This document shows, piece by piece, positions 3,394 through 24,418 of a DNA stretch of 26,137 bases. The stretch covers positions 1 to 26,137 of IMG/VR virus record IMGVR_UViG_3300009593_000104; one strand, 5' to 3'. A program made the translations under genes and the position numbers. Within the stretch, counting starts at the first letter, position 1. Every line of letters starts with the position of its first letter. A model generated the notes under the pieces. The model was given only the letters and a program-made list of their open reading frames with translations. It made no database searches and was not told the DNA's origin. The stretch is from a virus.

Positions 3394-6300
3394 TTAGCCC
3401 CCTCTTGATCCTGGTCCAAAGAAAGCACCAAAATCACTCGCCGCTGATGTGCTCCTAGTGCTCCTATTAGTCGCCGAACCGGCTCCGTCTGCGGTGCCAG
3501 CCATTTGCTTTTCAAATGGTCCCCCACCACTCGATGAAATACTGCCGCCTATTGCCCCTTGCAAAGTTTGATTGCCATTGTAGTAAACATTCTCAATATA
3601 GTTTGTGGTGTTCATACTATTAGTGAGATCACGAAATGAGGCCCCTGATGAAGCCATCAAATCAGGAGGCAAGAAGTTCATACCCACGCTCTCCAAACCA
3701 CCCATTGTTGACCCACCCACACCTGCTTGAGCATTGCTGTGACCGGGAAGCCAACTCATAACACCCGTGCCCGCTATTAACGAAGCCATATCCGTAATTT
3801 GTTCGAGATTGGTTTTAACTTCTTCTGTGTCCGCAGCCCAGCCCCCATAAACAAAGGTGGCTCCTTCAGCGGCGGCACCGACATCTTCGGTTACCTCTTT
3901 AACCCAACCTAATCCATCCGCAACATCTTGAATTGCTGATCTGACTTCTTCGCCGATTATTGCTTCGAAAAGGTCGTCATTTGCATCAGTTACGTCAACC
4001 AAACCTTCAACATTAGGAATAAGATTGTTGCCGAGTTTGTCGCCAGTCAGCCCGATTGCATTGCCAAGGTCAATAAACATCTCCTTGGCCTTCTCACCTT
4101 CCATTTTCATTTTCGCTTGGGCTTCAGCAATTTCTTGACCGGCTTCCATTAAACCTAACTGCGCTCTTGCCAACGGGCTCCCAGATTCAACACCTTGTTC
4201 AAAATCTGATAACGCTTCGTTGGCGTCTAGTAGCGCCATTTCTAAATCTTCTTGATGCCCCTGTCCTAACCTTAGAGCACGTAAAGCATCTTCCTTACGT
4301 CTCTTCAACTGCCGTTCTGTGAGTTTCTCCCTTTTTGTCGTGATCCCCTGAGTACCGAAATCACGCATTGCTTTTCTGACTTTCGCTTCAGCATCCTCAA
4401 AAGACAACTGGGCACGAATTGCCCTAGTCACAGACCCTATTTTTTCTCTCGCCGCCGCTAAGGCGGCATCAACAGCATTTTTAGTGTGGTTAACCAAAGT
4501 GCCTTTTTCTGCGCTTATGCCCTCGGCAATTCCTCGAGTGATCGGTCTACCGACTTGATCCATAAAGACAACCGAAGGAGAACTGATACCCAGGAACCAT
4601 TTAGCCCAACCCAGCAGCCCGTTTTCACCAAGGGTCTCACTAAGTTTGCCTATAACAGTGGAATACTCTTGCTCAACACCTAACGCCAACCCTCTAGCAA
4701 ATTCAGCACCTTGGTTTTGCCCCTGAGCGGCACCAAAAATACTCATGGTCCCTTCAGCAAGCGCTTTTAGACGAGTTTCGATCTCGCCTGTTACGAGATC
4801 CTTGTCGCCCATTTTCAGCATGTCTTGCCAGAACGAGTCGCCACCAAAGTTCAGATCTAAAGCGGCATCTACGTCAGACATCAAAGCGCCCTGATTAGTA
4901 GCATTTAACCGGATCAGGTTTTGAATCTTTTCGAATTCCTTCACGGCCGCTTCTTGAGTCCCCCCAGCCTCCAAAACTGCAACGGCGGCATCCCTAGCGA
5001 GATCCGCTAAATCAGAAAAGTTCTCTCTGTTCTCCATACCTGCTTGGCTCATATTGTCCATAGCAGTGCCGTTCTCCATGAACGATTTCACCATGGTCTG
5101 CAAACCTTGGTTAACCTCACGCTGAACTTCGTCAAGACCCCTTGCAGCGCCAGTAAGCATGTCAAAACGGTCTGAGAACTTATCGGCTTCAGCCCCAGCG
5201 GATTCGATGGCCACCTCTATGTCAAGGAAAGCATCTTCGACTGTTCTTAAACTTGTTGGCACATCATCAGCAAGCGCTGATGTTCCCTCTCTCATTTTCA
5301 TCAACTGTTTGGCGGCTTGTTCCAAAGCAACAGTTGCGATCATGTCCTCGCTAATGATCCCTCTTTTTGCCATCCATTTGATCTCAGGGAGGATATCCAT
5401 AACTTCTTGTGCAAAGGCTATCCAGTTCTCTTGACCGGCCCATTCGCCATTCATAAAATCGCTCTCAGGATCGGCATTCGCAATAGCCTCCATTTGCAAT
5501 AATATTGTGTCGAGACCCGCGCCTAAATCTTTATCAAAGAGATCCTGCTTATGGACTTGGTCCATAAATGCTCTTTCCACCAGTGTCATCATGCCAGTTA
5601 GTTCATCGCCAGTCAGGTTGCTCTCTTTACGGAACTGAGACATCATCTCCGCATAAATATTGACTGCTCCTGGTATGTCGCCTTGTTTCATTTTGTCAAC
5701 GACTATCCCAACCGGATCAACGAAACCAGCCTCAATATCTTTTCTGCCTATACGATCGACACCTAGCCAGAACTCCATACTCTCATCTTTATTTTTTGTG
5801 CTCCCCTTTTTTGTATCTGCCGCAATTTTGTCTGCTCTTGCCTCTGCGACAATACCCAGAATATTCTCCATCATTGACCCCGCCCATGAGGCAATTTGAG
5901 CGTCAGCAACCCTTTCACCGCCTTCAAGAACTGCGATCATCGCTTCATCAGGACTCAAACCTTCGAACAAACGGAAAAAGAACTGTTCTCCGTCCAATTG
6001 CCCCCAGAATTGGCTTTCGTATCTTTTAATTAACGCCGTGAAAGCCTCCATAACAGCCGGGTCTGTAGTGCCAGCACTGTTAAACATCTGCATAATCATT
6101 TCTTCCGCAGTGATTAACCCTGCCATCGCATCCTCGTCACCTATTTCATCAATTGCATCACCAAATTCTTGCAAAAAGGCATTCACCATGCCTTGAGAAG
6201 CAGAGATCTCTCCCATCTGACGAAGTTCATTATTGAAGTCCTGGATAGGTACTAAAGCCCTACCAGCGACTACGGCAACATCACGTAAAGAAGATCTAAG

Positions 6301-7770
6301 GTCTTGTAGTTCCTCGTGGGCGCTTTTAGAACTTTTTCCCCAAGCGAAAAACGCCATAGTTAACCCAATCACAGCGGTAGCGAAAAAGAGTATAGGTATA
6401 GCCGCCATCGCAAGTTTAAGAGCACCCATCGCTCCCGCAGCAATCCCAGTGCCTGTGGCTAGTTCCAAAAACGCCAAATATAAACTAACAACCGAGGCAG
6501 TTGCGAAACCTATAAGTTTCGTCAAAGCGCCAAGTGCGATAGCCGTCACACCAAGCGCCACAGTGAAAGCCGCTATCGCTTTATTCTTTGCAAAAACGCT
6601 TAACATCGCTTCCACTGCCCCTAAGAAAATTGCAAATATATCAATCAAAGGTTTTGTGGCTGCCCCTACTGAAATCATTGTTTCTTTCAACTTCGCCATT
6701 GATTGGTCAAACTTAAACTTTGAGGTTTTGGAAACCTTCTGGAAGGCTTCATCTGTATCGCCAGCGCTTTGAGCCAACCTCCTGAAAATGCCTGTGTTCT
6801 CCTCCAAGTTGGCTCCAGTGATGTCCATAGCACCAGCCAAAGCACGAATGTTAGGGAACACATCAGCAAATGCCTGCTCGTTGTCTTTGGCTAAGTCACG
6901 GAGCCTCACAAGGACAGCCAAAAGACCTTCTTGGCGAGCCTGTTTAGCGAGTTCCCCTTGGGCTATACCCATTTCACGCAAAGCCTGCTCTGTTTGACGT
7001 GATGGGTCCAAAATTGACTGCATTATCTGCCGCAACTGAATCGCTGACGTTCTGGCATCAGTACCAGTACGAGTCATAGCAGCAATAGCCGCTGCGACTT
7101 CGTGGAATTCGATACCCATAGCGGAAGCGACAGGAATGGCTTTACCAATAGCAGGGGCTAAACGGTCGGCTTCAACTTTACCTTCACGCACGGCGGCAGT
7201 AAGAACATCTACAGCATCGCTACCGCTCAGGTTCTCTGCGCCATAAGCGTTAACGGCTGATGTTGCAGCATCGGCAACAACTTTCGTTTCACCTAAACCA
7301 ATAGCGGCACCTTTAGCGGATGCCTCCATAACCTCCATAGCGGTTGCGCCACGCAAACCGGCTGAAGCCACGAAGAACATGGCGTCTGCGAGTTCTTGCG
7401 GTCCACGACCTGTGTCACGAGACACTGATTTAACAGCCTTGGAAAATTGTGCTACACCACCAGCAGAAACACCCACAAGGGCTTCAATCTTGACCATTGA
7501 TGCTTCAAACTTGGCAAAAGACATTGCTGCTAAAGAACCGATGGCGACAATTGGCAACCCTAATTTTTTCATCAAGGCATTACCGACAGTCTGTGCCTTG
7601 TAACCCATTGACGTTAAACTGCCGCCCGCATTTCCAGCGTTATCCCCAAATCGGGTCAATTGTTTATTAGCAGGTGCTAAATGTTTCGAAAATTGGCCAA
7701 CGCCACCTTTAACCCCTGTGGGGTCAAGAATAATTCGCTGTACGAGAGGTGGTAATTGAATCGCGGCCAT
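3394..7770 (-). CDS. Tail tape measure protein (TP901 family)
   Basis: This 1458-residue protein is the longest gene in the window and sits just after the tail assembly chaperone, as expected for a tape measure. Residues about 85-310 carry the TP901-type core ('GRGPQELADAMFFVASAGL', 'AIPVASAMGIEFHEVAAAIAAM', 'TSAIQLRQIMQSI'). Residues about 373-478 hold several hydrophobic segments rich in Ala, Leu and Ile, a usual membrane-inserting region. The rest is mainly helical. 'SSPSVVFMDQVGRPITRGIAEGI' near residue 1050 is a motif seen in many siphovirus tape measures. With the usual 0.15 nm per residue the tail would be roughly 220 nm. The last 120 residues are rich in Gly, Ser and Asn and may bind the tip. 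No peptidase or lysozyme motif was noticed. Confidence 0.93.
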   Translation of the reverse strand: MAAIQLPPLVQRIILDPTGVKGGVGQFSKHLAPANKQLTRFGDNAGNAGGSLTSMGYKAQTVGNALMKKLGLPIVAIGSLAAMSFAKFEASMVKIEALVGVSAGGVAQFSKAVKSVSRDTGRGPQELADAMFFVASAGLRGATAMEVMEASAKGAAIGLGETKVVADAATSAVNAYGAENLSGSDAVDVLTAAVREGKVEADRLAPAIGKAIPVASAMGIEFHEVAAAIAAMTRTGTDARTSAIQLRQIMQSILDPSRQTEQALREMGIAQGELAKQARQEGLLAVLVRLRDLAKDNEQAFADVFPNIRALAGAMDITGANLEENTGIFRRLAQSAGDTDEAFQKVSKTSKFKFDQSMAKLKETMISVGAATKPLIDIFAIFLGAVEAMLSVFAKNKAIAAFTVALGVTAIALGALTKLIGFATASVVSLYLAFLELATGTGIAAGAMGALKLAMAAIPILFFATAVIGLTMAFFAWGKSSKSAHEELQDLRSSLRDVAVVAGRALVPIQDFNNELRQMGEISASQGMVNAFLQEFGDAIDEIGDEDAMAGLITAEEMIMQMFNSAGTTDPAVMEAFTALIKRYESQFWGQLDGEQFFFRLFEGLSPDEAMIAVLEGGERVADAQIASWAGSMMENILGIVAEARADKIAADTKKGSTKNKDESMEFWLGVDRIGRKDIEAGFVDPVGIVVDKMKQGDIPGAVNIYAEMMSQFRKESNLTGDELTGMMTLVERAFMDQVHKQDLFDKDLGAGLDTILLQMEAIANADPESDFMNGEWAGQENWIAFAQEVMDILPEIKWMAKRGIISEDMIATVALEQAAKQLMKMREGTSALADDVPTSLRTVEDAFLDIEVAIESAGAEADKFSDRFDMLTGAARGLDEVQREVNQGLQTMVKSFMENGTAMDNMSQAGMENRENFSDLADLARDAAVAVLEAGGTQEAAVKEFEKIQNLIRLNATNQGALMSDVDAALDLNFGGDSFWQDMLKMGDKDLVTGEIETRLKALAEGTMSIFGAAQGQNQGAEFARGLALGVEQEYSTVIGKLSETLGENGLLGWAKWFLGISSPSVVFMDQVGRPITRGIAEGISAEKGTLVNHTKNAVDAALAAAREKIGSVTRAIRAQLSFEDAEAKVRKAMRDFGTQGITTKREKLTERQLKRRKEDALRALRLGQGHQEDLEMALLDANEALSDFEQGVESGSPLARAQLGLMEAGQEIAEAQAKMKMEGEKAKEMFIDLGNAIGLTGDKLGNNLIPNVEGLVDVTDANDDLFEAIIGEEVRSAIQDVADGLGWVKEVTEDVGAAAEGATFVYGGWAADTEEVKTNLEQITDMASLIAGTGVMSWLPGHSNAQAGVGGSTMGGLESVGMNFLPPDLMASSGASFRDLTNSMNTTNYIENVYYNGNQTLQGAIGGSISSSGGGPFEKQMAGTADGAGSATNRSTRSTSAASDFGAFFGPGSRGG

Positions 7771-9796: not shown

Positions 9797-10396
9797 GTGG
9801 AATTAACTACACCAAACGTCGAAACAAAAGGCCAGGAAGCCGCTCCAGACGCTCAACAAGAGTATTGGATAAAAGTAAACAATCAATCTGACTCAGAACA
9901 TTTGTCGGCAACATTAACCAGCGACTATAGCGACGGCACACCTCGTAACCCTAATGACTTAGAAAAAGATCACAAATCTATTTTAAACATTCAAGCAAGG
10001 GGTACCGACACAGAAGACCAGAAACAATATGGCCAATCTGTTGCAGCCCCTTATAAAAATATTTCTGATCCAATTATTGAACAGCGAGCACTCAAAGAAG
10101 GCAAAATAGTTAACCCTCCCAAAGAATGGATGACTTCTAAACTAGGGGTGAAAGTCTGGGACAATTCCGCTGCCGACAACAATGTTGTTAGGTGGATACC
10201 AGGATTAATATGCCAAGGAAGTGTCGCCCAAGAAGGCAGCAGCGAATGGGTCAAAAATTGCACATCGCTGTTTGACGACCGACTGGGTTACGCCGAAAGC
10301 ACAATCCTTGGTGGTCTATATGAGGAAGACCGCAATAAAGAAGAACACTGGTCTATGCACACGCTCTCAGATGTCGAGTCGGAAGGTAAAAAATAA
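9797..10396 (+). CDS. Hypothetical hydrophilic protein (GTG start)
   Basis: This 199-residue protein was not recognised. The first 85 residues are polar, rich in Asp, Ser, Gln and Asn, and probably disordered; the later half is denser ('EWMTSKLGVKVWDNSAADN', 'VVRWIPGLICQG'). No signal peptide or membrane segment is seen. The start codon is GTG with a modest AAGG about 8 nt upstream; no better ATG lies nearby. The stop overlaps the next ATG in TAATG, so the two are probably translated together. Confidence 0.68.
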   Translation: MELTTPNVETKGQEAAPDAQQEYWIKVNNQSDSEHLSATLTSDYSDGTPRNPNDLEKDHKSILNIQARGTDTEDQKQYGQSVAAPYKNISDPIIEQRALKEGKIVNPPKEWMTSKLGVKVWDNSAADNNVVRWIPGLICQGSVAQEGSSEWVKNCTSLFDDRLGYAESTILGGLYEEDRNKEEHWSMHTLSDVESEGKK

Positions 10397-10770
10397 TGGC
10401 AGTTCGTTCTTTCACGGGTTCAGAAACTTGTTACGACTTTGATACTGATATCAGTCACAATGAAGAAGATGTGGCCATGTACATGCTTATCTTTGGCATG
10501 GACATAGCAGACATAGAAACCGTGACAATAGATGAAATAATTACCGCTAGTAGAACAATGTTTCCTCACACCGAAAGGACTGGTGACCCTAGACCAGTTC
10601 TTTATGCAGCGACTGTTGAAGCCGACCGAGCCGCTGTGGAAGATGCGAGTGGGCGCAACTGGACTAGCGCTGCTGAAGATTGGATTACGACCACAAGATT
10701 TGGTATTCAGTCATACGTTAGGCGTGCTTTTCATTGGAGAAGCATTGCCAAGAAAGGTAAGGCTCTCTAA
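10396..10770 (+). CDS. Hypothetical protein
   Basis: This 124-residue protein (MAVRSFTGSETCYDFD...) was not recognised. It appears to be a compact alpha/beta protein, with an acidic first half ('DTDISHNEEDVAMYMLIFGM', 'DIADIETVTIDEIITASR') and a basic C-terminal tail ('SYVRRAFHWRSIAKKGKAL') that could contact nucleic acid or a protein partner. It overlaps both neighbours by one base in TAATG junctions, so all three are probably translationally coupled. Function unknown. Confidence 0.68.
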   Translation: MAVRSFTGSETCYDFDTDISHNEEDVAMYMLIFGMDIADIETVTIDEIITASRTMFPHTERTGDPRPVLYAATVEADRAAVEDASGRNWTSAAEDWITTTRFGIQSYVRRAFHWRSIAKKGKAL

Positions 10771-11537
10771 TGCCAGGTAAAAACGATTTTGCGATCAGTG
10801 ACCTTTTCCGAAAAAACATGGTTGCTTTGGATATGTCCAAAACACCATATTCAGACATGGATTCCTTTTTTACCGCAGAGCGTAAAGATTTTTATAACTA
10901 CGGTCGGGATTACGTTGAATCATTAACGCCTGACAGGCGTGCAATTGCGGGTGGCCATGACCCATACATGTTTATATGGGACTACCTTGTAGAACCTCAT
11001 CCTGAATGGATGTCTTATGTGTGGGTGCATGAAGAATTAAGAATGCTTCTATGTGATTTGAAGAACCCAACAAAGGCGTTGTTTACGAACCCAGTTGGTG
11101 GCCAGTTCTTAATGACTTTGAGTGAAGACAGAAGTAAAGAGGTTTTCTTTATAAACAACCTTGAGTACAACGTCCTGGAACGATTTGTGAAACAGAGCCC
11201 TGAGTGGGCGAGCAAAGACCCTAACTGGAAGGTGATGGACCAACAGGATCTTCTAGCAGGCGAAGAAGCGGGAACATTCGACTTTGTGGAAACCCATGCA
11301 GAGTACTGCTTTGGTTGTGATGAGGAGATGGCGGATGCTTATATGAATCTTCTTAACCCAGGGGGAATGTTGGTAATCTTGAATAGTGCTTATGCAAAAG
11401 GCATGTACAAGGTTAGGAATTCACTGCACCACGAAAACTATGAACCCAATAAACGTCTTCTGGAACGAGACGGGTTTACCGTGCTCCACTTCCCAATAGA
11501 TGTCGGTTTCACAATTATTCAGCGCGAGGCTTCCTAG
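10770..11537 (+). CDS. Class I methyltransferase-like protein with a degenerate SAM site
   Basis: This 255-residue protein has the layout of a Rossmann-fold SAM-dependent methyltransferase from about residue 95. Likely strands are 'KALFTNP' (102-108), 'KEVFFINN' (123-130), 'NWKVMDQ' (152-158), 'FDFVETHAEY' (170-179, the motif that usually ends in a catalytic or binding acid) and 'GGMLVILNS' (198-206) after 'LLNPGG', the standard loop before strand five. The glycine-rich motif I (usually GxGxG) is not clear; NPVGGQF at 107-113 is the only candidate. The first 95 residues form an extra helical domain with no recognised family. It is the last gene of the plus-strand island and its end overlaps the opposing oxygenase gene by 23 bp. 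Family assignment is inference; it could bind SAM weakly or not at all. Confidence 0.55.
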   Translation: MPGKNDFAISDLFRKNMVALDMSKTPYSDMDSFFTAERKDFYNYGRDYVESLTPDRRAIAGGHDPYMFIWDYLVEPHPEWMSYVWVHEELRMLLCDLKNPTKALFTNPVGGQFLMTLSEDRSKEVFFINNLEYNVLERFVKQSPEWASKDPNWKVMDQQDLLAGEEAGTFDFVETHAEYCFGCDEEMADAYMNLLNPGGMLVILNSAYAKGMYKVRNSLHHENYEPNKRLLERDGFTVLHFPIDVGFTIIQREAS

Positions 11538-12366
11538 CGGCACCTGCCCAAGCCTTTTCCATAGCAGGCCCTAAAGGTTCTGTTAAATACACATTCGTTG
11601 TTTTCAACACTTCATCTTCAGACGCTGAATTTGGATCTAAAGCAAACTCGTTCACTTCCATATTTGGGGTGCCTTGGCAATACCAACCAACATGACTATA
11701 CCTAGTACCCTGTTGAACCACGGTTGCTTCGTGAGCCCCCATGTAGTTAGAAGGGAACACTAACAAGTCACCTGTTTGTGGTGTGTACTCAACATCTAAA
11801 TAAGGGAACCTGACAATCCCACCCATGTAATTTGTCCCATTCAACTCCCAACATTCACTTACGCAATTATTGAAGAATGTGAGTGTGCTTATAACTGTGC
11901 GAGTGGCAATCTGATGCGTAGGGTGGGGTACCCCATATTTATAATCAGTGCTGGTGTCGGCATGAATTCCTAGTGACGCTCCTGGGGGATAAACCAGGAT
12001 GTGCCCTTTTATTTTCCACCATACCGACTGGGCTACCACCGGATAATGCTCCATGTAATCTGCGACACATTGCTCTCTCGCTTCTTCTAGCGCTATTAGC
12101 ATTTCTGTGACCTTCGGATCGGGTGAATTATATAAATAAGCGCAATGGCGGGGCATTTGGTTAATGCCTTCATTGGGGAAGAAGTAACCATTTCGATTTA
12201 AGTACCCTTGTTCCCCAGTTAAAGGATCTGTCCCAGGCGTGTACATGGAGTCCCATTCTTTTTGAGATTGCTTATCAGCGAATTGGCAGAGAGCCTCCCA
12301 ATCGGTATCCAACACATGACGGTACAGAATCAGACCAGGAGCGAGAACCTCAGCCGTGGTATTCAT
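11515..12366 (-). CDS. 2OG-Fe(II) oxygenase, prolyl-4-hydroxylase-like
   Basis: This 283-residue protein should use Fe(II), O2 and 2-oxoglutarate to hydroxylate an unknown substrate. The active-site pattern is complete: H135-A-D137 ('GIHADTST'), H212 ('GAHEATVV') and R222 ('GTRYS') for the 2-oxoglutarate carboxylate. 'GGIVRFPYLDVEYTPQTGDLLVFPS' is the typical double-stranded beta-helix stretch. The N-terminal 120 residues are a less conserved, likely substrate-facing part. It is the last gene of the oxygenase block, overlaps the dead TauD-like gene by 17 bp at its start and converges with the plus-strand island at its end. GAAGG lies 4 nt before the ATG. The substrate is unknown; a virion protein is one option. 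Confidence 0.85.
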   Translation of the reverse strand: MNTTAEVLAPGLILYRHVLDTDWEALCQFADKQSQKEWDSMYTPGTDPLTGEQGYLNRNGYFFPNEGINQMPRHCAYLYNSPDPKVTEMLIALEEAREQCVADYMEHYPVVAQSVWWKIKGHILVYPPGASLGIHADTSTDYKYGVPHPTHQIATRTVISTLTFFNNCVSECWELNGTNYMGGIVRFPYLDVEYTPQTGDLLVFPSNYMGAHEATVVQQGTRYSHVGWYCQGTPNMEVNEFALDPNSASEDEVLKTTNVYLTEPLGPAMEKAWAGAARKPRAE

Positions 12367-13258
12367 GGCCTTCAGGGACTACATACTCAGTAGCACGAGG
12401 TGGAGGAGTGTTTAAGGAGTAACCACCGTTGTGGCGAATCTGATCGAACACCAGTTCGTTTAGTCCGAACCCCGCAGACCAAGCAATGGATAGCCTGTAA
12501 GCGTCGTAGACAACAATGTCGCCTTCTTCCCAATCCCACCAATGCTGGTTACGGGGGTTTGCACAGTAGTTGAACACCCAAGAGTTAATCTCCTTGGTGT
12601 CCTCTTCAGTTAAGTCACCTATTGTGTCTAAATCCCAATAGAAGGGCGGGTCACAGTCGTCGTTAAACCCCTGCATTTGTAAAATAGGGTGGTCCCCAAC
12701 ATGCCACCAATGACGACGCACAATGGGGTGTGGGTATTGGATATTACCATCTGGTAGAAACGAAACCTGAGCCTCGAGTTTATAGGCGTCTCTTAAATGG
12801 TTTTTCCATTTTTTAGGGAGATCTCTCCACGCTTCGTGCATATCCACAAACCCAATAGCCCCCGTACCCGGAGGAGCGGTAAAGGTGTGCATGTTTATTC
12901 CACAAGTCCTTAAAGTGTGCTCCTTGTCGAGATCATCCATATACCAGAACATGAAAGTTTGCCTAGTCGGTTTATCAATACCTGGGTAATAGAAATCTCC
13001 TGCTTCTGGAACCCGCCCCCCTGTTGTCTCACTGTTAAGCATCTGGTTGAATCGAACTTCAAAATTCTCGTTAGGGCGGTAACTGTGGGTCCCATCAGAG
13101 AAGTGCATTGCTTTCATAACTTGGTGAAAATCATCTGGACTTAAATTGATGCCCCTCAACCCAAGCACTCCGTCCACTAAAACTACTGACCGAAATGTCA
13201 TGTCATCTTCGAGAATGCGTTCTTTAGTAATGCCCTTTAATTCGACTATCTTGACCAT
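12350..13258 (-). CDS. TauD-like oxygenase paralogue, probably catalytically dead
   Basis: This 302-residue protein aligns with the active TauD-like protein encoded just upstream. From W105 the two match without gaps for 27 residues up to a shared PG turn (W-Y-M-D here, W-H-M-E there) and continue to 'FVDM' and 'LP'. The first iron-binding His is Tyr106 here, with Asp108 kept. The distal His is replaced by Ile258 ('YRLSIAW' against 'YSLAHAV'). With both His ligands gone it should not bind iron normally, so a regulatory, scaffolding or binding role is more likely than oxidation. A strong GGAGG lies 4 nt before the ATG. Its start sits inside a 30-codon mini-ORF and its end overlaps the next oxygenase. 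The fold is confident, the loss of activity is inferred. Confidence 0.8.
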   Translation of the reverse strand: MVKIVELKGITKERILEDDMTFRSVVLVDGVLGLRGINLSPDDFHQVMKAMHFSDGTHSYRPNENFEVRFNQMLNSETTGGRVPEAGDFYYPGIDKPTRQTFMFWYMDDLDKEHTLRTCGINMHTFTAPPGTGAIGFVDMHEAWRDLPKKWKNHLRDAYKLEAQVSFLPDGNIQYPHPIVRRHWWHVGDHPILQMQGFNDDCDPPFYWDLDTIGDLTEEDTKEINSWVFNYCANPRNQHWWDWEEGDIVVYDAYRLSIAWSAGFGLNELVFDQIRHNGGYSLNTPPPRATEYVVPEGHEYHG

Positions 13259-13338
13259 CGCCCCTCCAGTAAAAAAAGTTCCATCATGTACATGGCTTCG
13301 TCGTCAGAGCGATAGAACAAAGGCCAATACCTACCCAT
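13246..13338 (-). CDS. 30-residue mini-ORF with a strong ribosome binding site
   Basis: The frame encodes 30 residues, starting MGRYWPLFYRSDDEAMYMME and ending with Arg-Trp-Ser-Arg before TAG. The ATG is preceded by GGAGG at 13350-13346 with a 7-nt spacer, which is as good as any site in the window. It fills the 72-nt gap between two TauD-like genes, overlapping the end of the first by 8 nt and the start of the second by 13 nt. Translation through it would load ribosomes onto the next gene, so it may serve as a coupling peptide, or the peptide may act itself. Not recognised as a known family. Confidence 0.5.
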   Translation of the reverse strand: MGRYWPLFYRSDDEAMYMMELFLLEGRWSR

Positions 13339-14212
13339 CGACTTTCCTCCTCTGCATTGGGTCTTCTCCGACACCAAAAACACCAGGCCCGAAATAAAAG
13401 CGACCATCCATCAGTCTTTCGCTCATAAAGAAACCATCAGTAACCGCATGGGCTAATGAATAAATATCCACAACGGCAACATCCCCTTGTTCCCAATGTA
13501 GCCATAACCTGTTGCTTTCGTCTTCTAATTCCGTATGGAGCCAATCAGTAAATTCATTTACCAAATAACCAGGGTTTAGATATATCTCTCTAATGCTTGT
13601 ATCCCCAGGCGGCATTTGCGTAACAGTCCTAAGAATCTCTTCTCCAGTTATCGGGTGCTTTTGAATCAGAGGGTGGGTGGTCACAGGCACTTCTTCCCCC
13701 TCGACATCAGTTGGGAACCAAAAGGTTGTTTCCTCAACCGAACTATTGAAGAGTTCCCTATCTATTGGAAACCAACCAGGCAACCCAACGGTTCTTGTTT
13801 GTTCCGCAAATTTTCTAAGGTGGTAAGGCAATTTACGACACACTTTCCCCATATCAACAAAAATTGTTGACCCACTCCCAGGCTCACACTGGAACTTCTC
13901 CATATGCCAAATCCCATAGACCGGAGGATGGTTCATGTAAAGATTCTCCATATGCCAAGGATTTAGGATGCCATTAACTGAAGGCCAATCGGATTCAAAG
14001 AACCCTTTGTAATCAACCTTGTAAGGAGAGTCCATGTCCTCCGCTGTTCCGAAACCTAGTAGATCTCTTATAACCCCAAACTCATCATCTGTGATATTTA
14101 ACCGTGGGAAAACCATAACTTTATGGTCATTGAAGCGCTCCCTGACATGCTTTTGGAACGGTTGCAGATCCTCGAGTTCATAAACTCCTTCGAAACGGTG
14201 GGCATCAGGCAT
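13331..14212 (-). CDS. TauD/phytanoyl-like 2OG-Fe(II) oxygenase
   Basis: This 293-residue protein has the TauD-type arrangement. H87-M-E89 ('NPWHMENL') supplies two metal ligands, and H255 ('YSLAHAVTDG') the third. R271 ('GRFYFG') is the candidate 2-oxoglutarate anchor. 'PGSGSTIFVDM..VCRKLP' at 111-129 and 'THPLIQKHPITGEEIL' at 179-194 are typical TauD-superfamily segments, the first with the usual PGxG-T-x-F turn. Glu takes the place of the usual Asp in HxD, which some family members share. The start overlaps the DUF6065 gene by 8 bp, and GGAAG lies about 10 nt before the ATG. A paralogue lacking the His ligands follows. The substrate is unknown. Confidence 0.82.
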   Translation of the reverse strand: MPDAHRFEGVYELEDLQPFQKHVRERFNDHKVMVFPRLNITDDEFGVIRDLLGFGTAEDMDSPYKVDYKGFFESDWPSVNGILNPWHMENLYMNHPPVYGIWHMEKFQCEPGSGSTIFVDMGKVCRKLPYHLRKFAEQTRTVGLPGWFPIDRELFNSSVEETTFWFPTDVEGEEVPVTTHPLIQKHPITGEEILRTVTQMPPGDTSIREIYLNPGYLVNEFTDWLHTELEDESNRLWLHWEQGDVAVVDIYSLAHAVTDGFFMSERLMDGRFYFGPGVFGVGEDPMQRRKVDG

Positions 14213-14930
14213 TGGGTTCTTCCAACTTCGGATGCCCTTGATGTTTAGGCCCTATTTGTTCTTCTTTTTCGTTTAAACCTGTGCGGACACTCCCCATCCA
14301 TGTCCAGGGTTGGTCTGTCATTTTTTGTGATTTCGCCGCACCATAACTCATTCTGCTTTCCATGAGTTCCTGGTCATCCCACATGTTGCGAACATCAAAC
14401 TCGACTTTAGATAAAGCCTCATCCTCCACAACTTGGAAAAACATGAAAGGCATCCCTTCGGGGAATGTCACCGGCTTATTAGGAGTTGTGATAACCCAAT
14501 TCATATTTACTTCATCAGGCCACCAGCCAGGCACCATAGCCGTCATAGGAACAGCGCCATCAATAAAATAATTAGGAGCACCGGACATCCAAACGCTATG
14601 TCCAGGAGGTGTGGTTATAGCCCACCCAACGGCGAATGAAACTGTCCCAATAATGCTTTGTTGAACAACATCTCTTTCATACGTTTGTCCATCTTCCAAC
14701 TCGTGGGTTATGGTCTGCCCAGAAAGAACACGGGGAACACTATTCCCCCCTTCCCATTGGACTACGACTGTCTGAGGTAAGCGTATCTCCCACCCGTGAA
14801 CATTTGCCGCCGTTAATGGAAGGCATTTGTAAGCGTGTTTGTTGAATGTTTCGTCCATCCACTCCCGACGTGGGCGGCATTGGCGTATTTCAGGAGGTTT
14901 CTGATGGCTCCTGGTGAGTGTGACTTTCAT
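14205..14930 (-). CDS. DUF6065 family protein
   Basis: This 241-residue protein matches the DUF6065 pattern as remembered. The sequence begins 'REWMDETFNKHAYKCLPL' followed by 'ANVHGWEIRLPQTVVVQWEGG', and has 'WAITTPPGHSVWMSGAPNYF' and 'MNWVITTPNKPVTFPEGMPF' in the centre, in the expected order. DUF6065 proteins are known in cyanophages and other aquatic phages and bacteria, often beside 2OG-Fe(II) oxygenases, but have no settled function. The 4-bp ATGA overlap at its start links it to the upstream oxygenase. The last 40 residues are polar and Lys/Gln/Glu-rich. The family call was made without a profile search. Confidence 0.78.
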   Translation of the reverse strand: MKVTLTRSHQKPPEIRQCRPRREWMDETFNKHAYKCLPLTAANVHGWEIRLPQTVVVQWEGGNSVPRVLSGQTITHELEDGQTYERDVVQQSIIGTVSFAVGWAITTPPGHSVWMSGAPNYFIDGAVPMTAMVPGWWPDEVNMNWVITTPNKPVTFPEGMPFMFFQVVEDEALSKVEFDVRNMWDDQELMESRMSYGAAKSQKMTDQPWTWMGSVRTGLNEKEEQIGPKHQGHPKLEEPNA

Positions 14931-15706
14931 CCAACTCTAGGGAAAGATTCTGCACGTTGGGTCACTTGACCTTCAACCCCTACCTCATCAAAAGCGCCCC
15001 CTAATTGGTTATTCAGAGTTGTGCGTTGATGGTTTCTGTCATTGTAGTCGTACATGACGACACAAGAATATTTAGTGCCGCTAAGTATCGGTAACGATTG
15101 ATGAACATAAGGGTAGTTTGATGGGAATACAACTATGTCCCCCGCCTGTGGTGTAAATGTAAACCCTTGATATGGGAAATCGAGTTGACCCCCTTCGTAA
15201 TCTTCGCCGCAAGTGTTGAAAAATGCCACGACAGAAGTCGTGCAAGAGTAAGAGAACCCATCATCGGGGTGGACCTGGAAATGTTGCCCTTCCGTGTACT
15301 TAACAAAATTAGGTGACTCAAAGTACTCTAGATTGATATTTAATCTCTTTGTGTAGTCGTTGACACAGAAATGAATATTCGCGATTACTTCCTCGTAAAG
15401 ATCCTTAAGGTCACTGAATTCGTCAGGGATGTTTTGGTAATAGGGCATCTCTTCACCTTGGGTGCCTCCAATCTTGAAATCAGAACAATCTCGGTAATTT
15501 TTCATCTCTTGAATGTCCCCCACAGTGGCATTGCCCCAATGGAAATATTCGTCATTTGAGTCCGTGAGACAGGCTTCTAACCTTTCTCCATAAGTTTGGT
15601 CGGCTGGGAAACCATTCTTGTAAATCGCCATACAGGCGCTCGGGTTAGGGCCTAAGGAGATAGGGCCTGCTATGTCTGGGTGTGGCAACCGAACTGATTC
15701 GATCAT
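14927..15706 (-). CDS. 2OG-Fe(II) oxygenase, prolyl-4-hydroxylase-like
   Basis: This 259-residue protein has a complete iron site: H146-P-D148 ('FQVHPDDGF') and H202 ('YPYVHQSL'). The 2-oxoglutarate anchor, usually Arg or Lys, is K212 ('SGTKYS'), where the two other prolyl-hydroxylase-like copies have Arg. 'EGGQLDFPYQGFTFTPQAGDIVVFPSN' is the core beta-helix segment and closely resembles the one encoded at 11515-12366. It overlaps the oxygenase before it and the DUF6065 gene after it by 4 bp each (ATGA), so the three are expressed as one unit. Its substrate is not known; the family includes peptidyl proline hydroxylases. Confidence 0.85.
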   Translation of the reverse strand: MIESVRLPHPDIAGPISLGPNPSACMAIYKNGFPADQTYGERLEACLTDSNDEYFHWGNATVGDIQEMKNYRDCSDFKIGGTQGEEMPYYQNIPDEFSDLKDLYEEVIANIHFCVNDYTKRLNINLEYFESPNFVKYTEGQHFQVHPDDGFSYSCTTSVVAFFNTCGEDYEGGQLDFPYQGFTFTPQAGDIVVFPSNYPYVHQSLPILSGTKYSCVVMYDYNDRNHQRTTLNNQLGGAFDEVGVEGQVTQRAESFPRVG

Positions 15707-16329
15707 TGTTCCTCCAATTCTGTGATTGTATAAAAAGACGGGGTGGTCCAGCGGGTCCCTGAGATGACTGGCTTCACACCGTGTAAATAGTTGATGTCAC
15801 CAGGATGCGCTACTGCCATGCCGGGCTCAATCGTTAATTCAATATCGTGGTCGGGATAATAAAATTCCCCACCTTCAAAATCAGCGTTCCAATAGATAAT
15901 GGAATTCAAATCATATGTTGGGAAGGGGTTAGGAGAGCCGTCATTTAATTGCTTATCTGAGTGTGGTGACTGCTCATTACCAGGAAGCCAACGAACCAAT
16001 ACTGGTGGTCTTTTCCAAAGTTTAACTTTGAAATGACTCTCTATTGCGCTTTGCATTTTGTCGATATACCCGTCAATCATCTCATAAACAAACGGGTTTA
16101 TTCTTTTTATGATCGGACCACTACACATACGGTCCCACCAATAGGAAGCATCATAAATACATTCCCCATCTTCGTTATATTCGGTCTCTCTAGGGTTGTC
16201 CCACTCTTTTATGTGGGGCATAAACACACTCATATGCTCCAAATCGAGCGGAGAAACAAAATCTTTTAAGATAAGGATGCTGTCAGTTGTGTCGCCGAAA
16301 TGGCCAGGCTCAACTAATGATTTTTCCAT
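15703..16329 (-). CDS. 2OG-Fe(II) oxygenase, prolyl-4-hydroxylase-like
   Basis: At 208 residues this is the most compact oxygenase here. Metal ligands are H123-S-D125 ('SPHSDKQ') and H183 ('NYLHGVKP'); R193 ('SGTRWTT') binds 2-oxoglutarate. 'NSIIYWNADFEGGEFYYPDHDIELTIEPGMAVAHPG' is the usual beta-helix core, given here only as a pattern: Asn-rich strand, EGGE turn, PG turn. It is the first oxygenase after the PASTA/FPPx repeat protein, 26 nt away, and its end overlaps the next oxygenase. The ribosome binding site is weak, an AAGGTG about 15 nt before the ATG, which suggests coupling with the upstream gene. It is the best candidate for acting on the proline-rich tail, by position only. Confidence 0.85.
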   Translation of the reverse strand: MEKSLVEPGHFGDTTDSILILKDFVSPLDLEHMSVFMPHIKEWDNPRETEYNEDGECIYDASYWWDRMCSGPIIKRINPFVYEMIDGYIDKMQSAIESHFKVKLWKRPPVLVRWLPGNEQSPHSDKQLNDGSPNPFPTYDLNSIIYWNADFEGGEFYYPDHDIELTIEPGMAVAHPGDINYLHGVKPVISGTRWTTPSFYTITELEEQ

Positions 16330-16355
16330 ACACCATAAGTGTACACCTTTACGCC

Positions 16356-16775
16356 TTAGAACTGTGGCTGATTGTAATGAACAAACGTCGGTGGGAAATG
16401 AGGCGGGAAATGAGGTGGGAAAAATGGAGGGAAGTGAGGTGGGAAAAATGGAGGGAAGAAAGGTGGGAAATGAGGCGGGAAGAATGGAGGAAAGAACGGT
16501 GGGAAGTGAGGTGGGAAATGAGGCGGGAAGAAAGGTGGGAAAAATGGACTGTAATAGGTGTAGTCAATCTCAGTTGACAACGGCTTAATTTCGCCAGCCG
16601 TTATAACCTGTGCACTAACCGTGTTTACCAACGTAGGGACAGAGGTAGAGCCTATACTTTTATCGCCTACAGTGAACCCAGCATTAGTAATTAGCGAATC
16701 AGCGTTAGTGGTCGTCTGCCCAACAATGTTGGGGACACCGGCTTTTCTGGGCCCTTGGTCTTTTGGCTCTACCAT
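16356..16775 (-). CDS. PASTA-like protein with a (Phe-Pro-Pro-x)n C-terminal tail
   Basis: This 139-residue protein has two parts. Residues about 12-38 ('GVPNIVGQTTTNADSLITNAG') match the start of a PASTA domain, a small fold known to bind peptidoglycan or muropeptides in bacterial kinases and penicillin-binding proteins. From about residue 76 to 130 comes a tail of tandem tetrapeptides, F-P-P-H or F-P-P-F, ending in ..HFPPTFVHYNQPQF. It lies directly after the large tail fibre and before the oxygenases, with an AAGG site before the ATG. A virion appendage that touches the cell wall, with a stiff hydrophobic polyproline tail, is a fair guess. The PASTA call is from a short motif and needs a profile check. 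Confidence 0.72.
   Translation of the reverse strand: MVEPKDQGPRKAGVPNIVGQTTTNADSLITNAGFTVGDKSIGSTSVPTLVNTVSAQVITAGEIKPLSTEIDYTYYSPFFPPFFPPHFPPHFPPFFPPFFPPHFPPFFPPFFPPHFPPFFPPHFPPHFPPTFVHYNQPQF
16391..16546 (-). repeat. Thirteen 12-bp tandem repeats encoding Phe-Pro-Pro-x
   Basis: The plus strand shows a 12-bp unit of the type GTGGGAAATGAG, GCGGGAAATGAG, GTGGGAAAAATG or GAGGGAAGTGAG, repeated about thirteen times in register with few stop-free breaks in any frame. All variants keep a purine-only bias on the plus strand. On the minus strand each unit encodes one F-P-P-x tetrapeptide, where x is His or Phe. Unit-to-unit changes are mostly at the x codon and at synonymous sites, so the peptide is kept under selection while the repeat number is likely to vary by slippage. 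Confidence 0.95.
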
Positions 16776-16787
16776 ACTCTTACCTTA

Positions 16788-19700
16788 TCAGTCGTCCATA
16801 TCGCCTGTTATCAGCCATTCGTCTGTTGCTATCTTAGTGCAAGTGCAAGATGAGTATTGATTCCTCAGTTTTAAGCCTGGGGTGGCACGAAGTGTGACTC
16901 CGCTACCAGCAACCATAGTTACTTGACCACTATTAGTTTGTGCAACTTGTATTGAAGTTCCAACAGCGAAACCGACACTGCTGTTAGGTGGCACTGTGCA
17001 GGTAACCGCTGAACCATTGCTCAAAGTTACTAACTTGCCTCGGTCACCGGCAACAAAAGTATAAGAGGCTGTTTGAGCGCTTATAGCGGTGTTGTAAACC
17101 ACGTTGCCCGTGACATCAAGTCCGTTACTATCAATCACTGCTGTTTCAGTTCCGCCAACATCAAATCGGATTTTGTCCTCATCTGAGGATTCCTCAACCT
17201 GAATCTTGGTGTCGTTATCAGCGTCTTTGATTGAGTCACTGCTAAGAGCGCCCAATTCTGTTTGGACGTAAGCCGTAGTAGCGACCTGTGTGGTATTCGT
17301 ATCTGCCGCCGCAGTTGGAGCAGTTGGTGTACCAGTCAAAGCAGGAGAGGCCAAAGTTGCGTAATCACCAAGTTCGGTCATCACGAACGCTGTGGTCGCA
17401 ACCTTTGTCGAACTGTCATTAGCCGACTGGGTAGTAGCGATTACTCCATCAGCGAGAACAACAGTTGCTGCGAGTGAATTCTTCGACAACTGGATGACAC
17501 CATCAATGTAAACACTCTTGCCGGTGGCGAGAGCGATGTGTTCTGAAGATGTCCAAGCGTCAGTTGAGTCAACCCAGTTGAAGGTTTTATCGCTTGCGCC
17601 CTTCAGGGTGATTCCACCGCCGTCAGCAGTGGTGTCACTTGGGGAGGCGACAGAACCAAGTTCAATGTTCTTATCATCAACCGTGATGGTTGTTGAACTG
17701 ATCTCTGTTGTCGTTCCGTTAACTGTGAGGTTGCCTGTAATAGTGACAGTGCCGTCAGCGGCTATTGTCATTCTTTCGGAACCAGCCGTGTCGAAACGGA
17801 TGATGTTCTCGTCTGACGATTCTTCTACTTGGATCTTGGTGTTATTGTCGGCGTCAGTTATTGAGTTACTGCTAAGAGCGTTAAGACCAGTATCCACGTA
17901 AGCAGTAGTGGCAACTTTTGTAGAGTTGTCAGATGCTGACTGCGTAGTAGCAGTCGCACCGTTGTCTAGAGCAGTCCCGTTAAGGTATATGGTTCCTGAA
18001 GCATCTGGGAAATTACAACTTCTATTAGCGGTGGCGCTCTGGGTCATGGTTATCCAGTAACCGTTGTATTCCCTAAGACCGTTAGAAGCAGCAGCAAAAC
18101 TGGTTCCATCACCTATTCGCAAGGAGTGTGTCATGTGCGTGTAATAATCATCAAGATGGAAAGTTCTGAATAATTCATCGCCAGTGCCATCGACATTGCC
18201 GATGTAAAAGTTCAAACCTCCAAAGTCGTCTTCGCCGAGTTCTTCAGCCCACGCAGCGATCTGGGCGTAATTGGATTTGTTGCCTTGCTCATCTTCACCT
18301 GAGAACCTGATAGCGCCTAGCGCATCGTTGTCAGCGGGGCTTGCACTATTTCGGTAAAGATCAAGTATTGGCCCATGAAGAGCGCCAGCATCAGTGCTTG
18401 TGACTGTTACTGTGCCTGAGAAGTCAGCGTTAACTGCACTCACATCAGCAGTGACGGTCAAATCATTACCGATAGTCACATCGTTAGGTAGCCCTATTGT
18501 GACTGCCGCCGTTTCCGAACCTGAGCCAGAAACCTCAACCTCGTTAGAAGTACCCGCTACTGTCGCAACGTAATTACCTGAAGTGTGTGTTCCTAAAGTG
18601 GCAGCAACTGTGAGGTCGATAGCCCCATCGCCTGCATCGTCATATGCGGCTGTTAAACCTGTATGAGAACCGTTAGTTGCTATTTGAGCGCCAGAGATGT
18701 CTTGAACATTCTCTGTGACAAGGGCCAAGTCAATGGCACCATCGCCAGCGTCGTCGTAGGTCGCCGTAATGCCCGTATGAGAGCCGTTGGTGGCTAACTG
18801 GGCACCTGTGATGTCTTCTACGTTCTCAGTCACCAGAGCAAGGTCTATGGCGCCGTCACCGGAATCGTCATATGTGGCCGTGATGCCAGTATGCGACCCG
18901 TTTGTTGCCAACTGGGCTCCAGAAACATCTTGTGTCGCCTCAGTAAAATCTGTTACTGCTGTTGATGGGATAGCGATTGTTGTGGCAGAAGCAGCACTCA
19001 AACGACCGTAAGCATCCACCGTAAATGTGCCCGTTGCGGTAGCACTTCCATAAGAACCGGCTGAGACGCCAGTCGTGGCCAAATCAATATTGTCAGCATT
19101 CGTAACGATGCGAGCAGCGCTTGCTGTCCCTACGTTGATTGTGTTCCCACTTATCGCCACACCAGTACCAGCAGTAAATGCTTGAGTACCAGTGAACTGG
19201 GTGAACGTAATGTCGTGAGTACCCACAGTATGTGGATCACTTGTGGATGTGACGACGAATCCTTGCCCGCTGTTGGCGGAACCAGATAGAACATACACAG
19301 ATTCGCCTGATTTGATCTGCCCTGTTGGGCTTCCATCAAAGTCAACGGCACGAGTCAACACCCATGCGGCTGATCCATCTGTTCCTTGTGTGGTCACATC
19401 ATAAAGACCATTTTGTAATGCGCTTGACTGGTCCTGGACCAGTACCCGATCCCCTGTAGTTGCGTTTGACCCATCTACGACGAGCCTCGCATTAGAACCT
19501 GCGGTAAGAGTAGCCCCTACCCCAGAAGTCCCATTGCTGTAAGTCGGCGAGTTAGGAAGAGCAGCAGCGGTACCCAACTTGACGGCTTCATGCCAGTTAA
19601 CAATGCTTTCCTGATCCACCCATTTAATGCCAGCGGTTTGGGCGCTATCAGCAACAAGAACCTGTCCATTTGAGCCAACGGCAACTCTAGCGACAGTGTT

Positions 19701-19919
19701 ATCTGCGGAACCTACAATGAGATCACCTTTAGCATCAATCAGGGCAGTGTCAATTGACCCTAACCCACCATAACTAAGCGATGTCCAAGCAGTGCTTCCG
19801 TCCCCGATCTTATACTTCGTAGTGTCCGACTCTAAAGCAAATTCACCGTTCGCTAATGTCGGATTGTTGGATGTCCAGTTGGATGCTGTGTCCCTTCTGA
19901 ACTGAATTAGTGCTGGCAT
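16788..19919 (-). CDS. Large tail fibre protein with a tropism-determinant-like N-terminus
   Basis: This 1043-residue protein is likely the main receptor-binding fibre. Residues 1-50 ('RRDTASNWTSNNPTLANGE' to 'KIGDGSTAWTSLSY') match the Mtd N-terminal type seen in many aquatic phage fibres. Residues about 322-435 hold three 38-residue repeats built around 'GAQLATNGSHTGITATYDD'. Further on come three 'TKVATTAYV'-type fibre repeats and a module 'LTVNGTTTEISSTTITVDD' shared with the next fibre gene. The C-terminus ('KLVTLSNGSAVTCTVPPNSS' to 'LKLRNQYSSCTCTKIATDEW') is a widespread fibre tip domain. A clear AGGAG site precedes the ATG. No chaperone gene was recognised next to it. Probably trimeric, by analogy. 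Confidence 0.87.
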   Translation of the reverse strand: MPALIQFRRDTASNWTSNNPTLANGEFALESDTTKYKIGDGSTAWTSLSYGGLGSIDTALIDAKGDLIVGSADNTVARVAVGSNGQVLVADSAQTAGIKWVDQESIVNWHEAVKLGTAAALPNSPTYSNGTSGVGATLTAGSNARLVVDGSNATTGDRVLVQDQSSALQNGLYDVTTQGTDGSAAWVLTRAVDFDGSPTGQIKSGESVYVLSGSANSGQGFVVTSTSDPHTVGTHDITFTQFTGTQAFTAGTGVAISGNTINVGTASAARIVTNADNIDLATTGVSAGSYGSATATGTFTVDAYGRLSAASATTIAIPSTAVTDFTEATQDVSGAQLATNGSHTGITATYDDSGDGAIDLALVTENVEDITGAQLATNGSHTGITATYDDAGDGAIDLALVTENVQDISGAQIATNGSHTGLTAAYDDAGDGAIDLTVAATLGTHTSGNYVATVAGTSNEVEVSGSGSETAAVTIGLPNDVTIGNDLTVTADVSAVNADFSGTVTVTSTDAGALHGPILDLYRNSASPADNDALGAIRFSGEDEQGNKSNYAQIAAWAEELGEDDFGGLNFYIGNVDGTGDELFRTFHLDDYYTHMTHSLRIGDGTSFAAASNGLREYNGYWITMTQSATANRSCNFPDASGTIYLNGTALDNGATATTQSASDNSTKVATTAYVDTGLNALSSNSITDADNNTKIQVEESSDENIIRFDTAGSERMTIAADGTVTITGNLTVNGTTTEISSTTITVDDKNIELGSVASPSDTTADGGGITLKGASDKTFNWVDSTDAWTSSEHIALATGKSVYIDGVIQLSKNSLAATVVLADGVIATTQSANDSSTKVATTAFVMTELGDYATLASPALTGTPTAPTAAADTNTTQVATTAYVQTELGALSSDSIKDADNDTKIQVEESSDEDKIRFDVGGTETAVIDSNGLDVTGNVVYNTAISAQTASYTFVAGDRGKLVTLSNGSAVTCTVPPNSSVGFAVGTSIQVAQTNSGQVTMVAGSGVTLRATPGLKLRNQYSSCTCTKIATDEWLITGDMDD
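17571..17750 (-). repeat. Module shared with the second fibre gene (copy 1)
   Basis: This is the large-fibre copy of the module described at 20881-21060. It encodes the same pattern (TVDDKNIELG, ASPSDTTADGGGITLKGA) and is interrupted by no stop or shift. Confidence 0.7.
18615..18956 (-). repeat. Three 114-bp tandem repeats in the large fibre gene
   Basis: Three units of exactly 114 bp start at 18615, 18729 and 18843 on the plus strand. Each encodes 38 residues containing GAQLATNGSHTG and DDxGDGAIDL. The last unit differs at its far end, where the sequence passes to ...FTEATQDVSG. The equal length and high similarity indicate recent tandem duplication. Confidence 0.85.
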
Positions 19920-24088: not shown

Positions 24089-24418
24089 TTAGGCTTCGCC
24101 TACCTCTAGCATTCTTTTTGCTCTCAGTATTAAAAGCCTTTCTCGGGTGCTTTTCCCTCCCCATATACCATAACGCTCATTGTTCCCTAACGCATATTCT
24201 AAACACTCTCTTACTACCGGACATCTAGAACAGAGTTCCTTGGCTGCTTTGAGGGATTCCGTATCTCCAGGTGAAGGGAAAAAGATTGATGGGTCCTCAA
24301 TGTTTTTACACAAAGCCCCTTCTTGATATTGGGGTCTCTCAACAGCCAATATCCGATCTGAGGTATCCCATCCCCCAGAGCCAGCCTGAGACGTTAAATA
24401 TGAATCATTCCAGGCCAT
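24089..24418 (-). CDS. WhiB-family [4Fe-4S] transcription factor
   Basis: This 109-residue protein has the WhiB signature: Cys37, then C63-x-x-C66 and Cys72 ('ELCSRCPVVRECLEYAL'), followed by the 'GIWGG' turn at 84-88 and a basic helix 'KSTRERLLILRAKRMLE' that usually contacts DNA. The four cysteines hold an iron-sulfur cluster. WhiB proteins bind the primary sigma factor in actinobacteria and tune promoter choice; phage copies such as the TM4 one are known to interfere with host WhiB genes. The 36-residue N-terminal extension is longer than the core. It sits in the neck operon, so it is probably expressed late. The ribosome binding site is weak, which could point to a start close to the 5' end. 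Confidence 0.92.
   Translation of the reverse strand: MAWNDSYLTSQAGSGGWDTSDRILAVERPQYQEGALCKNIEDPSIFFPSPGDTESLKAAKELCSRCPVVRECLEYALGNNERYGIWGGKSTRERLLILRAKRMLEVGEA

Follow-up and report, generated by a model that had tools for sequence, protein, structure and literature searches.

Few accessory genes are annotated as often in aquatic phages as those for 2OG-Fe(II) oxygenases, whose roles have been guessed to lie in nitrogen metabolism, DNA repair or host recognition. In collagen, prolyl 3-hydroxylase (P3H1) acts on the first proline of Pro-4Hyp, i.e. the proline that precedes 4-hydroxyproline, and in PBCV-1 the repeat substrates are of the PAPK type. The PBCV-1 enzyme vCPH (PDB 5c5t) is characterized in the 1999 paper 'Evidence for 4-hydroxyproline in viral proteins', as that paper is cited in PMC9301287. 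P4H genes in Baltic viruses have been termed 'cryptic' (PMC9301287), EGLN3-like folds have been reported in marine phages (PMC12774648), and bacterial and viral collagens are described as having no prolyl hydroxylation (PMC3368898). For phages, 2OG oxygenases have been proposed to serve nitrogen/2OG control and DNA repair (PMC3037559), and a part in host recognition has been proposed for Fe(II)-dependent oxygenases from their location in islands (PMC3909814).

The locus analysed here lies in a 26,137-base virus record of IMG/VR (GC 47%), the whole of which we refer to as the window. It encodes a short protein ending in a run of Phe-Pro-Pro-x (FPPx) units, followed by a series of 2OG oxygenase genes. 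The co-occurrence of this repeat with such enzymes, which extends to many uncultured phages and nearly always falls within one gene cluster, together with the kinship of the enzymes, suggests that phages modify their own tails chemically after synthesis. On balance we think it likely that the phage has hydroxylases dedicated to the prolines of its own FPPx tail, the genes forming a tail-modification cassette.

Organization of the FPPx locus

The window comes from a tailed phage, to judge by its predicted genes for WhiB, a tape-measure protein and Dit, and the WhiB gene indicates that the host is probably an actinobacterium. The features are as follows.

2526-3386: Dit-like protein
3394-7770: phage minor-tail/tape-measure domain (E 1.8e-24)
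11515-12366, minus strand: third PF13640 2OG-Fe(II) oxygenase, w3, with H135, D137, H212 and R222 (PF13640, E 5.2e-8)
12350-13258, minus strand: TauD-family protein without an HxD/E motif (PF02668, 9.5e-11; motif scan)
13331-14212, minus strand: TauD-family (2OG superfamily) protein (PF02668, 3.7e-20)
14205-14930, minus strand: DUF6065 protein, a frequent cassette member (PF19541, 1.6e-41)
14927-15706, minus strand: Lys-type 2OG-Fe(II) oxygenase w2, prolyl-4-hydroxylase-like, with H146, D148, H202 and K212 (PF13640, 4e-9)
15703-16329, minus strand: Arg-type 2OG-Fe(II) oxygenase w1, prolyl-hydroxylase-like, with H123, D125, H183 and R193 (PF13640, E 1.5e-4; PHROG 61, E 1e-12)
16356-16775, minus strand: FPPx repeat protein of 139 residues, with a PASTA-type N-terminal part and a C-terminal repeat tail (ORF; homologues aligned)
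16386-16541, minus strand: 13 consecutive FPP[F/H/T] units, residues 79-130
16581-16736, minus strand: PASTA-like domain, residues 14-65 (Pfam PF03793)
16788-19919, minus strand: tail-fibre-like protein with an Mtd_N domain, directly upstream of the FPPx gene (PF18454, 4.1e-12; PHROG tail fibre, 3e-25)
24089-24418, minus strand: WhiB regulator (E 3e-21)

On the minus strand the Mtd_N gene is followed by the FPPx protein, w1, w2, DUF6065, TauD, TauD and w3, with successive gaps from the FPPx gene to w3 of 26, -4, -4, -8, 72 and -17 nt, i.e. a tightly packed operon. When the neighbours of FPPx loci are clustered, the cluster of the Mtd_N tail-fibre-like gene occupies position -1 relative to the FPPx gene in 28 loci. 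Two plus-strand genes, 10396-10770 and 10770-11537, are convergent with the cassette and, as clusters 11 and 7, are conserved in some 30 FPPx loci; neither has a significant match in NCBIfam, the search of 10770-11537 against Pfam likewise gave none, and by eye 10770-11537 looks like a SAM-dependent methyltransferase.

The initial annotation had seen about 13 Phe-Pro-Pro-x units at the end of a PASTA-like protein. Exactly 13 are counted, whereas 20,000 shuffles of the same residues give 1.3 FPP on average and never more than 7. The proline codons CCA, CCG and CCT differ freely from unit to unit while the encoded residues stay constant, and selection thus acts at the protein level. The repeat is FPPx and glycine-free, and so distinct from the collagen-like Gly-X-Y type. 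PASTA (PF03793) is weak in the window protein (E 1.4e-4, 22.2 bits versus a cut-off of 23.2) and is matched by 14 of its 18 relatives (E <= 0.01), with a best E of 7.7e-10. Two plus-strand ORFs that run across the repeat (16196-16588 and 16287-16577) were rejected as genes, since PASTA and all homologues use the minus-strand frame.

The 2OG-Fe(II) oxygenase that the same annotation placed 26 nt from the repeat gene, with an HxD...H...R site, corresponds to w1 (H123-x-D125, H183, R193). Its two further oxygenases are w2 and w3, both of which belong to PF13640, but w2 carries lysine (K212) rather than arginine. The operon also holds the two TauD-family proteins and the DUF6065 protein, which that annotation did not mention. 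A double-stranded beta-helix fold, the HxD...H motif and a basic 2OG-binding residue place the PF13640 oxygenases of the cassette within the 2OG-Fe(II) superfamily with intact active sites, and the TauD-family protein at 12350-13258 (minus strand) may be inactive, atypical or a non-catalytic partner.

The repeat and its carriers in related phages

The longest unbroken FPPx run in relatives spans 3 to 34 units, with a median of 13. Across 156 loci among the matches listed, the x residue (about 2,370 in total) is F in 1460 cases, Y in 396, H in 359, S in 46, T in 25, A in 18 and W in 15, and in 115 of these 156 carriers no more than 20 residues separate the end of the repeat from the C-terminus. 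Seventeen FPPx loci had no in-frame repeat by ORF calling, and in the seven that were examined again the repeat is in frame.

In some carriers the FPPx run is directly followed by another domain. A Peptidase_S74 chaperone was found after the repeat in all three carriers scanned, of six bearing the motif, and a Hint/intein-like domain follows in L073 by Pfam and in L008, L070 and L100 by motif; the Peptidase_S74 or Hint/intein-like arrangement is seen at L146:9912-10451, L158:10037-10552, L167:10572-11210, L177:9143-9886 and L073:8063-9304, in addition to the three motif-based loci. Both domains are self-cleaving, so that after cleavage the repeat would again be the mature C-terminus.

The carriers comprise a PASTA type, a fibronectin-III (fn3) type and smaller ones, which share no BLAST similarity with each other upstream of the repeat. 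2OG genes accompany 37 of 41 PASTA-type loci and 36 of 40 fn3-type loci, and the w2 tree requires at least two carrier switches on supported branches. The 2OG genes track the repeat rather than the carrier. As a separate observation, glutathione-peroxidase/redoxin-like genes adjoin FPPx genes in 24 and 30 loci, for example L064:5950-6564 and L141:853-1791.

Co-occurrence of FPPx repeats and 2OG oxygenases

IMG/VR was scanned, blind to the enzymes, for DNA able to encode (FPPx)4, which yielded at least 120 loci. In DNA of at most 15 kb, 2OG genes were called with an HMM built from the enzymes of the window plus the requirement for HxD/E...H. The survey of FPPx/2OG co-occurrence that the initial annotation had called for finds the pairing to be real, frequent and specific: a 2OG gene is present in 83 of 120 FPPx loci among the matches listed versus 0 of 98 random viral loci picked by an arbitrary 14-mer and only roughly matched in habitat (Fisher 4e-31). 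Loci with collagen-like repeats hold one in 8 of 91 cases. With curated Pfam on whole contigs, PF13640 occurs in 46 of the 50 FPPx contigs of at least 25 kb among the matches listed, mostly in 5-15 copies, and 2 of 26 random contigs of at least 25 kb have one weak match, below the cut-off. E-values and Fisher tests here ignore phylogeny, for which dereplication is a partial correction. Conversely, w1 retrieves 78 contigs, at least 64 of which carry FPPx (44, 8 and 12 from three checks), and many of those beyond these 64 are short or cut beside the gene.

The fairest control is anchoring on the tail-fibre N-domain. Loci found in this way have both features in 13 cases, FPPx only in 3, 2OG only in 4 and neither in 60 (Fisher 4e-9, dereplicated 2e-7), and among the long contigs so anchored, four have both, eight neither and one FPPx only, its contig end falling within the repeat. 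The presence of 2OG genes in 4 of 64 anchored phages without FPPx versus 13 of 16 with FPPx weighs against an explanation by hitch-hiking, according to which FPPx tails and 2OG oxygenases travel together because both reside in the hypervariable island that aquatic phages use for host recognition, the one not being a substrate of the other. In favour of hitch-hiking, Fe(II)-dependent oxygenases are listed in marine metaviromic islands beside host-recognition genes (PMC3909814), and within loci of at most 15 kb the FPPx gene is not clearly nearer to a 2OG gene than other genes are (median 290 versus 581 bp; 35 versus about 31 within 300 bp). Joint exchange would, however, leave the lower enrichment beside collagen-like tails and the recurrence of the same two enzyme families with several unrelated carriers to be accounted for, and we regard it as improbable.

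Permutation of adjacency within a locus is uninformative where loci are this short and so densely filled with 2OG genes, and whole contigs were used instead. In contigs of at least 50 kb, 36 of the 88 2OG genes among those listed are no more than 8 kb away from the FPPx gene, versus 16.3 under the null (5,000 draws, maximum 40). Local clustering of 2OG genes near the FPPx gene is thus present and moderate.

FPPx repeats common in oxygenase-free phages, which the initial annotation named as evidence against its proposal, are not what is seen: four of the 50 long FPPx contigs among the matches listed (L009, L065, L071 and L088) have no PF13640. A third carrier family of eight members (six loci of at least 6 kb), which includes L009, L011, L012 and five others, has FPPx with no 2OG gene nearby, and represents either a form that stays unmodified or one whose modifying genes lie far away.

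T4-like cyanophages carry 2-11 PF13640 copies, or 1-11 when their relatives are included, and in the six records examined FPPx is absent, not even two units being found. The related phage enzymes therefore serve other jobs, and a strict two-way co-occurrence is ruled out. Among these cyanophages, NC_006883, NC_015287 and NC_015281 have 5-11 PF13640 copies per genome and are FPPx-free. A search of 50,697 deposited phage records with w1, w2 and flanking genes gave only distant and partial w1/w2 matches, mostly cyanophage 2OG enzymes. In bacterial genomes, in-frame FPPx matches are mostly uniform, microsatellite-like runs of FPPP, FPPV, FPPL or FPPR with no 2OG genes; the sole FPP[FHY] runs are at L421, L451 and L491, two of which have 2OG genes in the 6-8 kb covered, and these three loci look phage-derived. 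From kinship and literature rather than sample metadata, the FPPx phages are apparently aquatic.

Families and relatives of the cassette enzymes

By neighbour clustering, the w1 family occurs in 116, the w2 family in 110 and DUF6065 in 63 of the 156 loci among the matches listed, a set partly chosen by w1. Of the 56 pattern-found loci of at least 8 kb among the matches listed, 44 contain w1 or w2 and 32 contain the two together. The 2OG-binding residue is arginine in 150 of 160 w1 proteins and lysine in 132 of 139 w2 proteins; in alignments, lysine is also found at this position in B. anthracis P4H and arginine in P3H1.

Against solved structures, which is the scope of this search and is biased to well-studied hydroxylases, the w1 profile matches P3H1 best (2.6e-17), bacterial P4H next (5e-13) and then PiuC, human C-P4H, algal P4H and EGLN1, with Tet-like enzymes also among the PDB relatives, whereas the w2 profile matches P4H (1.3e-6) and LH3. 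AlphaFold2 models of w1 and w2 have pLDDT values of 94.8 and 85.2, respectively. Foldseek with the w1 model retrieves P3H1, PHD2, PiuC and vCPH, and with the w2 model P. putida P4H (EF-Tu) at the top, then vCPH, PHD2 and algal P4H bound to (Ser-Pro)5. Assignment to the PiuC/PKHD type (PRK05467, an NCBIfam equivalog) does not hold, w2 scoring 34.5 bits versus a cut-off of 143 and w1 having no match. By profile and predicted fold, the closest relatives of w1 and w2 among solved structures are mostly peptidyl prolyl and lysyl hydroxylases.

Discussion

Co-occurrence alone leaves the identity of the substrate unfixed. We infer that the repeat is the substrate, hydroxyproline the product and the virion the destination of the protein, with a benefit to the phage. 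The phage would make a tail-region protein with a C-terminal run of FPP-aromatic units, and the enzymes of the operon, above all the Arg-type w1 and the Lys-type w2, would hydroxylate its prolines in the infected cell, consuming O2, Fe(II) and 2-oxoglutarate. Hydroxylation may set the conformation of a rod, a role that hydroxyproline has in collagen and in plant HRGPs, may render the tail stiffer or give it its shape, or may confer adhesiveness. The x residues, or other substrates, may be the targets of w3, TauD and DUF6065. The initial annotation had proposed that the phage hydroxylates its own proline-rich tail, changing its stiffness or its binding to the cell wall. Of this, the pairing and the kinship to prolyl and lysyl hydroxylases stand, but PASTA-based binding to the cell wall does not hold throughout, since a considerable fraction of the repeats is borne by fn3-type carriers instead.

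A more specific version, which we put forward tentatively and consider rather doubtful, is a two-enzyme pathway in which the P4H-like w2 and the P3H-like w1 hydroxylate the neighbouring prolines in every FPP-aromatic unit, so that the virion would bear a novel type of hydroxylated aromatic-proline fibre, one that would be widespread in uncultured aquatic phages. As an idea only, the Pro-Pro pair of FPPx would suit such a two-step route, since P3H acts on the proline before 4Hyp.

Loci often hold 5-15 enzymes, which is more than proline alone seems to need. The five enzymes of the window, too, exceed the needs of one reaction, and x is nearly always F, Y or H, which would fit enzymes that act on the FPPx tail mainly at aromatic or histidine residues (x or Phe), forming for example DOPA-like or hydroxyhistidine adhesive groups, with proline secondary. 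TauD-cluster genes associate with His-rich repeats (0.32 versus 0.08, p 5e-8), and one glutathione-peroxidase-like cluster with Tyr-rich, His-free repeats (p 7e-8). The matching of these single enzymes to residue types was nevertheless rejected, as the correlations are confounded by lineage and structural tail genes give equal p-values. With the two most conserved enzymes resembling prolyl hydroxylases, we think it unlikely that proline is only the secondary target. It is similarly unlikely that the oxygenases act on the host, either on a protein such as EF-Tu, which the top fold match of w2 modifies in P. putida, or on 2-oxoglutarate/nitrogen metabolism, as published for the FPPx-free cyanophages (PMC3037559), because this leaves unexplained both the enzymes' association with FPPx tails on different carriers and their near absence from comparable FPPx-negative phages.

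The specific and recurrent link to a tail repeat gives a large subset of phage 2OG oxygenases a concrete candidate substrate that is cheap to test. If hydroxylation of the FPPx tail is confirmed, it would be, to our knowledge, the first case of a phage hydroxylating its own virion protein and would offer a bacterial, two-gene route to hydroxyproline polymers; the two-enzyme pathway, if true, would assign a function to a large group of those phage 2OG oxygenases that are commonly catalogued as auxiliary metabolic genes. The proposed modification would also tie tail adhesion to the oxygen, iron and 2-oxoglutarate of the infected cell. Our search, which covered papers in the open literature, turned up no account of FPPx tails or of oxygenases paired with them, in line with the initial annotation, which had regarded the pairing as not described.

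Among known systems, collagen P3H1 and collagen P4H are the closest solved relatives of w1 (2.6e-17) and w2 (1e-6), and the FPPx unit offers a Pro-Pro pair, but the collagen enzymes are large ER proteins that act on Gly-X-Y triple helices, whereas the glycine-free FPPx repeat makes a collagen helix impossible. Collagen-like (GXY) phage tail fibres likewise bear a proline-rich tail repeat, yet with a different unit and with 2OG genes in the 8 of 91 loci noted above. The 2OG-Fe(II) oxygenases of T4-like cyanophages (PHROG 61) belong to the same broad family and are present in several copies per genome, but their matches to w1 and w2 are weak and partial, the six records contain no FPPx, and the role published for them is in nitrogen metabolism or DNA repair. 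The nearest known system is PBCV-1 vCPH, which is also a virus-encoded 2OG prolyl hydroxylase and whose fold is shared by the w1 and w2 models. PBCV-1 is, however, a eukaryotic algal virus with repeat substrates that differ from FPPx, and we know of no operon in it in which a repeat tail adjoins a pair of Arg- and Lys-type enzymes. Thus, systems in which a virus encodes both a prolyl hydroxylase and the repeat substrate are already known as a kind, and what is new, as far as we have seen, is the repeat, the enzyme pairing and the occurrence in phages.
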